Of a DNA stretch of 64,000 nt, positions 8,505 to 37,617 are shown one piece after another (position 1 is the stretch's first letter; the number at the start of each line of letters is the position of its first letter). The stretch is from Haloarcula taiwanensis (GTDB lineage Archaea > Halobacteriota > Halobacteria > Halobacteriales > Haloarculaceae). The position numbers were made by a program, and so were the translations under genes. The notes under the pieces are model-generated. The model worked only from the letters and a program-made list of their open reading frames with translations. It ran no database searches and was not told where the DNA came from. The DNA is taken from the NCBI GenBank assembly GCA_002844335.1, contig CP019154.1, positions 1,736,001 through 1,800,000 of the forward strand, given 5' to 3'.

Positions 8505-8519
8505 GTGTAAGATATGAAT

Positions 8520-8641
8520 GGTGGCGGCGAACCGGATTTCCCAGAGGCTCGCGCACTCCAGTACTCCCCGGAACGCTGGCGGGCTTATCTTCCGTGTTCG
8601 GGATGGGTACGGGAGGCAACCCCGCCGCTGTGGCCGCCTAA
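8520..8641 (-). rRNA. rrf: 5S ribosomal RNA
   Basis: 122-nt 5S rRNA on the minus strand, starting TTAGGCGGCCACAGCGG and ending CGGTTCGCCGCCACC. The terminal helix (GGCGGC pairing with GCCGCC), the CCCGAACACGG loop and the GGGGAGTACTGGAG segment identify haloarchaeal 5S. The 122-nt length matches the value known for Haloarcula. It follows the 23S gene after about 139 nt and is preceded immediately by a tRNA-like minihelix (8642-8682). Confidence 0.97.
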
Positions 8642-8682
8642 CGCCGAGTCGCGGAATCGAACCGCGAGGATACCGGTCTCGG
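8642..8682 (-). other. tRNA-like minihelix directly upstream of 5S rRNA
   Basis: The minus strand just before the 5S start holds a canonical T-arm: stem CGCGG/CCGCG closing the loop TTCGATT (8650-8666). Outside it, CCGAG (8678-8682) can pair with CTCGG (8644-8648), giving an acceptor-like stem coaxial with the T-arm. No D-arm or anticodon arm is present. In Haloferax volcanii the 5S 5' end is known to be matured by tRNase Z acting on a tRNA-like element, and this element fits that role. Confidence 0.6.
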
Positions 8683-8693
8683 TCGGTCTCCAC

Positions 8694-8734
8694 CGTGTGT
8701 TCGTGCGATCCAGTTTGCGCCTGGACTCGTTCAG
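8694..8734 (-). other. 23S rRNA processing stem, 3' strand (bulge-helix-bulge)
   Basis: This stretch downstream of 23S pairs with 11722-11762 upstream of it. The outer helix is 20 positions (one mismatch) and the inner helix 14. Between them GCGC pairs with GCGU on the other strand, leaving bulges AAA here and CCA opposite. That is the standard archaeal bulge-helix-bulge cut by the splicing endonuclease to release pre-23S. Confidence 0.8.
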
Positions 8735-8779
8735 CGACGAGTAAATCGTCGGTGAATGAGTCACAGTGCGTATGAATGA

Positions 8780-11702
<2,923 letters not shown>

Positions 11703-11721
11703 GTCGTTGTGACTCGTTCAA

Positions 11722-11762
11722 CTGAACGAGTCCAGTGGACGCCTGGATCGCACGTACACACG
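11722..11762 (-). other. 23S rRNA processing stem, 5' strand (bulge-helix-bulge)
   Basis: Partner of 8694-8734. Read on the minus strand it gives the outer helix, then GCGT (the 4-bp central helix), the 3-nt bulge CCA and the inner 14-bp helix ending about 20 nt before mature 23S. It is a complete bulge-helix-bulge motif. Confidence 0.8.
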
Positions 11763-11908
11763 GTTTCATATTCGCCCCCAAGGTGGAGATGGTGGGCGAA
11801 TCGACCCTTCCCAGGCTCGGTTTCACCCGGCCTGGTGCATCTGTCGTCGTATCACATCCGAACGCCGTCCCACACTTAAGGGGCACGGTTCGGGAGCGAT
11901 ACGAAGTA

Positions 11909-11986
11909 CGGACCCGTCGGGAGTTGCACCCGACATCCCGTGAAGGGATATCCGCCTCGGATAGGTCTTGTGAGCCCAGTGGGCCC
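11909..11986 (-). pseudogene. Degenerate tRNA-like segment, possible tRNA-Ala remnant
   Basis: Read on the minus strand, 78 nt begin GGGCCCA, include GGGCTCA where a D-arm would start, and end with a 5-bp T-arm-like stem and GGGTCCG. The acceptor strands pair at six of seven positions (one G-U), with position 7 mismatched. The middle folds as two 5-bp hairpins with 5-nt loops, so no anticodon can be assigned. The end sequences resemble haloarchaeal tRNA-Ala, suggesting decay of the usual spacer tRNA; chance resemblance is possible. Confidence 0.35.
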
Positions 11987-12075
11987 ATGCAGTAGTCGGC
12001 GCTTGCCGACTCGCGGTGACTTGTGGTCACCAGTCAGTGTAGGTGGGTCAGGGCAAGGCCCTGATCCCGGTCAGT

Positions 12076-13547
<1,472 letters not shown>

Positions 13548-34998: not shown

Positions 34999-35832
34999 CC
35001 GGTCGGTATCAGCCGACAGACACCGGTTGATTGATTGGGTCACGGACAGCGTGTTTTTCCCGGGAACACCACCCTTCGAGTGTTCTTTGGGGAATCTGAC
35101 TGGCCAGCTGTCGCTACGACGGCAGTTCACCCCTGACAGTCTCCACAGCCCGAATGTACCAACTAGACTGGTCAGTACGCTACTGTACGCGGTCTGTGTG
35201 GGTCATACTGAGCTGGTACACCACCCTACAAGTGTTCTGACATCACCACCCAGCTGACCCGACACCACTATACAAGTGTTCTATCACCACCCTGCGAGTG
35301 TTTTTAGTTCGGTTGCAACCGGACTAGAACAGTGAACACGCGTTCACACACCACCCTGCAAGTGTTCACACGGCGGTGTACAGACATCTGAAATTCCCGA
35401 AGACACCACGCTGCAAGTGTTTTATTGCGTTGTTCGGAGTCTCAACGCGTCCCCTCACACCACCGTGCAAGTGTTTCACGTACTAAGCGAGAAGACTGTA
35501 TCGGAACACCACCCTGCAAGTGTTTCAAAAAGACCGTTTTGGGCGGTTTTGCCGTCGGATCGAGGGTTCACACCACCCTGCAAGTGTTTTCGAAACGGAA
35601 TACCGTGGGGCTGTGGTAGCGAAAGAGGACACACCGGTCTGCAAGTGTTCTACACACCGCAACGGGGACCAGATGCCTGCATAGTCGCATCCAGCTTATT
35701 ATTGATTGTGGGTACACACACCACCGTGCAACTGTTCTTGTCGTCACGATATGGAGACTGCCGCTGAACACACACACACCACCGTGCAAGTGTTCTGCCG
35801 CGTGAGCCGGAAGGGGTGTGCAAAAACGTGGG
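34999..35832. other. Long intergenic region carrying the cdc6-associated repeat array
   Basis: 834 nt between the acyl-CoA dehydrogenase and the 3' end of cdc6, with no convincing ORF. It is filled by 12 copies of a 20-bp repeat (35066-35795) separated by irregular unique sequence. AT content is higher than in the flanking genes. Confidence 0.85.
35066..35795 (+). repeat. Array of 12 direct 20-bp origin-type repeats 3' of cdc6
   Basis: Consensus ACACCACCCTGCAAGTGTTT (last base T or C; position 9 C or G). Copies start at 35066, 35218, 35262, 35284, 35348, 35403, 35457, 35506, 35570, 35631, 35718 and 35776, all in the same orientation. Most differ from the consensus by 0-3 bases; the most divergent are 35066, 35262 and 35631. 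Start-to-start spacing ranges from 22 to 152 bp. The same element occurs on the other side of cdc6 (37198, 37244 and inverted at 37598), so it is most likely the binding site of this Orc1/Cdc6 protein. Confidence 0.93.
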
Positions 35833-37161
35833 CTACGTGAACTGCCAGAGGTTCTGTTGCTCATCGTCAGTGGTGTCCGGTGCCTCGAATTCAGTCGCCT
35901 CGTCTTCCAGATAGTGTTCGAGAATTCCGTTGACGTTACTCGGTACGGCATCACTGTAGGATGACTGGAGGGCGGCGTTGATGATATCGGTCGGGTCGTC
36001 GGTGACTTCGTAGATGTACTTGCGCCCGCCCTTGCGACCAAGGTTGCGCTCGGCTGAGCGGACCAGCCCCTGCATCGAAAGCTGGTCAAGGAACTCGTAG
36101 ATTTTCCGCTCAGACTTCACACGGCGGCCGCTCGACTCCGCGATAGAGGAGTAGAGGTTGTAGATCCGTTTCGTCGACGCTTCGTGTTTTGGTTCGATAA
36201 GTGCAAGCGTCGTCGCGAGATACGTTAGCGCCTGCTGTGAACTCAGGTCGTGCTCGAAGTAATCCAGCAGTTCGTCAGTCTCGATGGTGTCTGTCGCCCG
36301 CCGTGTATGGGCTTCCGTCACACCGTCTGCGCCTTCCATCCGCGCATACTCCCCGGCTTTTTCCAGAATTCGAAGCCCCTGTCGAACGTCGCCCCGTTCC
36401 TGTGCCGAGAAGGCCGCCGCAAGCGGGACGACATCTTCGCCGAGTACGTCTTCCCGGAACGCGATGTTGGCGTAGTAGCCCAGAATGTCGCGAAGTTCGG
36501 TCGCGTCGTACGGGCCAAACTTGATCTCTCGCTCGCCCAGCGTCGATTTTACCTTGGGTTCCAGCACGTCGACGAACTTGAGGTCGTTCGAGATACCGAT
36601 GAGTCCGACCTTCGCATCGGTGATCGGCGTGTTCTCGTTCGCTTCAGCCCGTGGCAGTTCGTAGAGGAAATCGTTCCGCGCGTCCGCTGGGATGTTGTCA
36701 ATCTCGTCCAGAATGATGAGGACGTTCCCACCAACAGCTTCAATCTCTTCGTAGAGAAATTCGAAGACGCTGTCAGTGCTGTAACCGCTCTCCGGGAGTT
36801 GGTTCTCAGGATCCCGGAACTCGTTGACGAGCGTGTTCACCAGTGCATACGCTGACCGGTAGTTCCGGCAGTTTATCGGCCCGACAACGGTGAGCGGGAT
36901 GTCCTCGGCCTCGGCCTTCTCCTCGAGTTTGTCCCGTACCCACTTCGTAACCGCCGTCTTTCCGACTCCTGTTGGGCCGTAGACGAAGACGTTGTTGGGG
37001 TCGTGGCCGACAATGACATCCTGAAGCGCGTTGATGTAGAACTCGATCTCCTCGTCGCGGTGAAATATCGTATCCGGCGTGAACGTGTCTTTTTTCAGCG
37101 GTTGCTTTCGTTCGAAGATTGCATCAGTCCCATCGAACGGGTTCTCGTTCACGTCGACCAT
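35833..37161 (-). CDS. cdc6: Orc1/Cdc6 family replication initiator
   Basis: 442-residue AAA+ origin-recognition protein. Walker A is YGPTGVGKTAVTKW near residue 62, Walker B is VLIILDEIDNIP near 150, and sensor 1 is LIGISNDLKF near 190. A C-terminal winged helix (about 340-420; RRVKSERKIYEFLDQLSMQG) reads DNA. I place the start at the ATG at 37161 (MVDVNENPFDG) because a TATATAAAA box at 37185-37193 is correctly spaced for a leaderless transcript beginning there; an ATG three codons upstream would lie too close. It is bracketed by its own repeat family, marking an adjacent origin. Confidence 0.95.
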   Translation of the reverse strand: MVDVNENPFDGTDAIFERKQPLKKDTFTPDTIFHRDEEIEFYINALQDVIVGHDPNNVFVYGPTGVGKTAVTKWVRDKLEEKAEAEDIPLTVVGPINCRNYRSAYALVNTLVNEFRDPENQLPESGYSTDSVFEFLYEEIEAVGGNVLIILDEIDNIPADARNDFLYELPRAEANENTPITDAKVGLIGISNDLKFVDVLEPKVKSTLGEREIKFGPYDATELRDILGYYANIAFREDVLGEDVVPLAAAFSAQERGDVRQGLRILEKAGEYARMEGADGVTEAHTRRATDTIETDELLDYFEHDLSSQQALTYLATTLALIEPKHEASTKRIYNLYSSIAESSGRRVKSERKIYEFLDQLSMQGLVRSAERNLGRKGGRKYIYEVTDDPTDIINAALQSSYSDAVPSNVNGILEHYLEDEATEFEAPDTTDDEQQNLWQFT

Positions 37162-37197
37162 GTATGCCACCTTTCGAGTGACTCTATATAAAACCAG

Positions 37198-37263
37198 TGA
37201 CCACCGTTCAAGTGTTTCAAGTGTTCCTACGTCGAACAGTCACACACCACCCTGCAAGTGTTT
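37198..37263 (+). repeat. Two direct origin repeats next to the cdc6 promoter
   Basis: Copies at 37198-37217 (a 3-mismatch variant with CCGTTCAAG) and 37244-37263 (exact consensus). An extra half-site CAAGTGTTC follows the first copy. The first copy begins only 5 nt from the cdc6 TATA box, so initiator binding could repress its own promoter. Confidence 0.85.
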
Positions 37264-37597
37264 CTCCACTCCATCTCGAAAACAGGCACGAACGGTCCGC
37301 TACGTCGAGAGCTGAGCTAACACACTTGAGTCCTGCGATTCTTGCTTCATCAATTCAGAGTAGATATAGAACTAGAATATAATTCTTATATCTTGTTGTA
37401 CATGCAATTTATACTGGTACATGTTGAATAGCGTGTTCTACAGATTTCCCACCAATAAGCCTCTCATCGCACCTAAATCACCGCATTGAGCTACTGGCCA
37501 GATCACATAATCTCAACAGACCAGAGCAATCTTGCGTCCGCTTAAATAACAAAAAAGGGGCTCCACCCCTCCCCACCCCCACCCCTGCAAATGCCAA

Positions 37598-37617
37598 GAA
37601 CACTTGCACGGTGGTGT
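37598..37617 (-). repeat. Inverted origin repeat
   Basis: Reverse-strand copy reading ACACCACCGTGCAAGTGTTC, identical to the array copy at 35776. It is the only copy found in the minus orientation and it bounds the AT-rich element on the right. Confidence 0.9.

Follow-up and report, generated by a model that had tools for sequence, protein, structure and literature searches.

The oriC2-cdc6E-oriC2D replication module on a Haloarcula main chromosome, with a one-way array of twelve ORBs behind the initiator gene

The locus described here belongs to the main chromosome and corresponds to the oriC2-cdc6E-oriC2D module of Haloarcula, its second chromosomal replication origin. The array of boxes behind its orc1/cdc6 gene is real and functional, but it is already known, having been published in 2012-2014 and genetically tested in the close relative H. 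hispanica, so that the novelty implied in the preliminary description of this DNA does not hold. Only the strict orientation of the boxes and a box at the cdc6E promoter go beyond the literature that we found. The best explanation of the whole, and in our judgment a very probable one, is a module in which oriC2D sequesters Cdc6E and restrains oriC2.

A consensus scan of the window (the whole stretch of DNA analysed, 64,000 nt) defined the ORB as a box of 19 bp, not 20 bp as first described, with the consensus ACACCACCSTGCAAGTGTT (scan pattern ACACCACCCTGCAAGTGTT). Downstream of cdc6 the scan returns exactly the twelve same-orientation copies of the preliminary description, all on the plus strand at 35066-35794 and each with 0-3 mismatches. 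They all lie within an 834-bp intergenic region, bounded on one side by the stop codon of an acyl-CoA dehydrogenase gene and on the other by the stop codon of the minus-strand orc1/cdc6 gene:

34999-35832, no strand: oriC2D, intergenic region with the ORB array, 834 bp; function from PMC3936714
35066-35084, plus: downstream ORB 1, farthest from cdc6E, ACACCACCCTTCGAGTGTT, 2 mismatches
35218-35236, plus: downstream ORB 2, 1 mismatch
35262-35280, plus: downstream ORB 3, 3 mismatches
35284-35302, plus: downstream ORB 4, 2 mismatches
35348-35366, plus: downstream ORB 5, exact consensus
35403-35421, plus: downstream ORB 6, 1 mismatch
35457-35475, plus: downstream ORB 7, 1 mismatch
35506-35524, plus: downstream ORB 8, exact consensus
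35570-35588, plus: downstream ORB 9, exact consensus
35631-35649, plus: downstream ORB 10, 3 mismatches, yet 98% conserved in that form in Haloarcula
35718-35736, plus: downstream ORB 11, 2 mismatches
35776-35794, plus: downstream ORB 12, adjoining the cdc6E stop codon, 1 mismatch, 99% conserved in Haloarcula

The expected small set upstream of cdc6 is also there, with three boxes at 37198, 37244 and 37599. Chance matches are rare, as Markov-shuffled sequence is expected to give 0.05 of them per 64 kb at up to 4 mismatches. When the entire 3.72-Mb genome was scanned, 13 of the 14 sites with at most 2 mismatches fell in the oriC2-cdc6E locus, and the reversed pattern, used as a control, gave no site in the same 3.72 Mb. 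A lone near-perfect box, AGACCACCGTGCAAGTGTT, lies within an ORF of the 130-kb secondary replicon (G000:C3:111203-111221; L051:3204-3222), and several Haloarcula genomes (G001, G007, G008 and G020) carry the same 19-mer on other contigs; a conserved coding stretch or a distant Cdc6E site may account for it.

The gene that adjoins the array belongs to the Cdc6E family of Orc1/Cdc6 genes. Its product has 442 aa with the ATG at 37161 as start (445 aa with a GTG farther upstream) and carries the Pfam domains AAA, Cdc6_lid and, at the C-terminus, the Cdc6_C winged helix. Orthologues in 14 other Haloarcula genomes are 97-100% identical to it, and 99-100% in most of those having cdc6E. The gene, its promoter and the origin upstream are arranged as follows:

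35833-37161, minus: orc1/cdc6 initiator gene, orthologue of H. hispanica cdc6E (Pfam domains and orthologues)
37185-37193, minus: cdc6E promoter TATA element, TTTTATATA, located 24-32 bp upstream of the ATG; orthologues keep the position
37198-37216, plus: promoter-proximal ORB abutting the TATA element, 4 mismatches; candidate autorepression site
37218-37225, plus: conserved half-box beside the promoter ORB, CAAGTGTT, in most orthologues
37244-37262, plus: oriC2 ORB, inner arm of the inverted pair, exact consensus, 99% conserved
37320-37440, no strand: AT-rich region between the inverted ORBs, GC 0.29-0.33 against about 0.5-0.6 around it
37599-37617, minus: oriC2 ORB, outer inverted arm, 1 mismatch, 95% conserved

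An AT-rich stretch between inverted boxes, here those at 37244 (plus) and 37599 (minus) upstream of cdc6E, is the standard archaeal origin layout, and the AT-rich region is likely the unwinding element. Two other stretches of oriC2 stand out by their conservation in Haloarcula. The first, ACACTTGAGTCCTGCGATTC at 37322-37341, between the inner ORB and the AT-rich region, is 93% conserved and is possibly a further oriC2 element; the second, a C-rich run adjoining the outer ORB (TCCACCCCTCCCCACCCCCAC at 37562-37582), is 82% conserved and is reminiscent of the haloarchaeal G-string.

The identification with the published module rests on the gene, its place, the boxes on both of its sides, the cluster of 12 copies of the same ORB in the 3' intergenic region directly behind it, and the rRNA neighbourhood, all of which agree with H. 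hispanica. The orthologous locus on a 2,995,271-bp contig, which we take to be the H. hispanica chromosome, has 11 boxes in the 722 bp between the two stop codons, against 12 in 834 bp here, the most distal box of the window (35066) being the one that is missing there. H. marismortui oriC2-cdc6h, which is likely the locus on contig G014:C8 (3,131,724 bp), has 12 boxes in an 828-bp region with nearly identical spacing and shows minor sequence differences only. On a 525,943-bp replicon (G189:C1), likely that of Halorubrum lacusprofundi, the homologue agrees in box orientation and box position but has 3 boxes, and its protein is 81% identical.

The H. hispanica oriC2-cdc6E locus and its downstream ORB cluster, named oriC2D, were reported together with genetic tests in 2013/14, and the counts from our scan are exactly those published, namely a 722-bp intergenic region with 11 boxes in H. 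hispanica and three downstream boxes at the oriC2 homologue of Halorubrum lacusprofundi (Wu et al., PMC3936714). H. hispanica cdc6E and H. marismortui cdc6h had also been listed among the genes flanked on both sides by ORBs (PMC3528665; further papers on the H. hispanica system are PMC4441112 and PMC4010727). The rRNA operon lies about 20 kb from oriC2 and points away from it (PMC4441112), and the window likewise has one some 20 kb off (8519-13547, minus strand, about 22 kb away) whose transcription is directed away from the origin.

Genetic work in H. hispanica gives the array its function. There, oriC2 is active as an origin and depends on Cdc6E, and oriC2D could be deleted only once oriC2 had been removed too, the failed deletion being negative evidence (PMC3936714). 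In the same study oriC2D reduced the replication of an oriC2 plasmid both from the chromosome, in trans, and on the plasmid itself; two boxes had an intermediate effect and repression grew with ORB number, from which the authors inferred a datA-like titration of Cdc6E (PMC3936714). Titration is their inference because direct binding is not reported in the main text, where a term search finds no mention of EMSA, footprint or in vitro binding (PMC3936714). The suggestion in the preliminary description that the one-sided array is a titration or copy-control element limiting the initiator thus matches the published genetics of this very locus in a relative, and that description also named the genus correctly. 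An alternative, that the array serves as another origin or prolongs the existing one on the 3' side, is brought to mind by the ORB element that it has in common with oriC2, yet the array contains neither an inverted pair nor a comparable AT-rich stretch (array GC 0.46-0.61), and on its own oriC2D showed no ARS activity in H. hispanica (PMC3936714), which refutes the idea there and leaves it with next to no probability here.

The downstream boxes run in a single orientation in 228 of 228 cases, with 1-12 per locus, across 30 orthologous loci, some of which are the same species from two collections, and no box of opposite orientation occurs within 1.2 kb downstream in any of the 30. The upstream set, two boxes one way and one the other, is constant across these loci except in Halobellus, which has five, and in L043, whose contig starts too late to show the outer box. 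In 14 Haloarcula loci, identity to the window is 91% inside boxes and 58% between them, a difference that no circular shift of the box mask reached in 839 tried. Among 32 Haloarcula genomes, boxes with at most 2 mismatches were found in all 16 that have a close cdc6E orthologue and in none of the 16 that do not. This gap in conservation, together with the co-occurrence with cdc6E, supports a Cdc6E-specific element that selection would have kept. A range of 1-12 copies among orthologues is what functionless leftovers of a repeat expansion, whether CRISPR-like or mobile, might also produce; we regard such an origin as extremely improbable, however, given that the boxes are far better conserved than their spacers, retain one orientation and are found only together with cdc6E, that their spacing is irregular, unlike CRISPR, and that deletion of oriC2D has a phenotype in H. 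hispanica (PMC3936714).

A check for loss of the array in close relatives found it in every orthologue examined, with 8-12 copies in Haloarcula loci that are near-identical to those of the window. Array size is 8-12 at Haloarcula main-chromosome loci and 2-5 within 1.2 kb on named plasmids; a tie between large arrays and chromosomal location is suggestive and is not claimed, as a 3.66-Mb contig has 4 boxes and a 3.18-Mb contig 6. The protein tree has too many open forks for independent array expansions to be counted. In Halobellus inordinatus (L008/L044) eight downstream boxes follow one another at a near-perfect 46-47 bp, in contrast to the irregular Haloarcula array, and this is perhaps a recent tandem expansion.

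Elsewhere in this genome, further orc1/cdc6 genes are flanked on either side by distinct repeat sets of their own. One such set includes four copies at exactly 36-bp spacing (L018 1242-1407, G000:C4), and another orc1/cdc6 gene is surrounded by ACACCACnnTGTCCGC boxes (L017 1374-3297, G000:C2). The genome's second-best Cdc6 match, in L017 (G000:C2:182851-184086), is interrupted by a TAG stop within the match and is possibly a decayed initiator gene.

Spacing within the array had been taken as a hint of binding to one face of the helix, given that eight of the eleven start-to-start distances are close to multiples of 10.8 bp. The arithmetic stands, with p=0.012 for the post-hoc 10.8-bp statistic, whereas same-face phasing is not robust. 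For the window array, standard phase statistics with the period left free give p=0.16-0.28 and a test at a fixed 10.5 bp gives p=0.25-0.35; phasing is weak or absent in most of the 11 other arrays tested, and the 46-47 bp spacing of Halobellus puts neighbouring boxes about half a turn apart. Same-face helical phasing is therefore not supported by the free-period, fixed-period or cross-array tests.

These results bear on directional handcuffing or looping, in which array-bound Cdc6E would pair with Cdc6E bound at oriC2 about 2 kb off and sterically block initiation while free Cdc6E is not lowered. Iteron plasmids handcuff, and both the strict orientation of 228 of 228 boxes and the constant position of the array right behind cdc6E in all orthologues would suit such a complex. 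Spacing that lacks a helical phase and differs among species fits it poorly, however, and the lowering of oriC2-plasmid replication by chromosomal oriC2D in trans (PMC3936714) is simply explained by titration, so that we consider handcuffing possible but unlikely.

Under titration, Cdc6E would bind the inverted ORBs on either side of the AT-rich region that lies upstream of cdc6E, and replication would start at oriC2, while the twelve one-way ORBs of oriC2D would take up additional Cdc6E and leave less for oriC2. Such sequestration would keep oriC2 from over-firing, and the fork would pass through the array immediately after initiation, doubling the number of sinks. We infer that repression acts through direct Cdc6E binding and titration, and that the mechanism of H. 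hispanica applies unchanged in this species.

A second level of control may lie at the promoter. Every orthologue examined has the TATA-abutting ORB, at about 55-58 bp upstream of the cdc6E ATG, and this placement suggests, from sequence, autorepression of cdc6E by its own product, which would probably add to the effect of the sink; a limited literature search turned up no case of a cdc6 promoter being autoregulated through ORBs. Given that a fixed orientation in 228 of 228 boxes is unneeded for pure titration, part of the effect may come from a directional complex or from loops formed with oriC2. It can be speculated, though we hold it improbable, that oriC2 is not controlled by simple titration and that a directional Cdc6E assembly on the array, acting on oriC2, and the invariant TATA-abutting ORB form a loop with two kinds of feedback, autorepression and sink, which moves as one cassette between plasmids and chromosomes.

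How archaeal origins are controlled is poorly understood, and for few cis elements other than oriC2D is there genetic evidence that they restrain one. The same layout recurs in several haloarchaeal families, on plasmids as well as chromosomes, with arrays of 1-12 boxes, a natural series on which the effects of dose and orientation could be tested.

Outside the archaea, the module has two counterparts. The DnaA-titrating locus datA of E. coli is likewise a cluster of initiator boxes that limits initiation, but its DNA elements are unrelated, and datA, which binds IHF and stimulates the hydrolysis of DnaA-ATP, is not linked to dnaA, whereas oriC2D adjoins cdc6E. Iteron copy control by the inc arrays of bacterial plasmids, which cause incompatibility, is alike in that direct repeats of the initiator site lower replication, with Rep proteins in place of the AAA+ Orc1/Cdc6 proteins.
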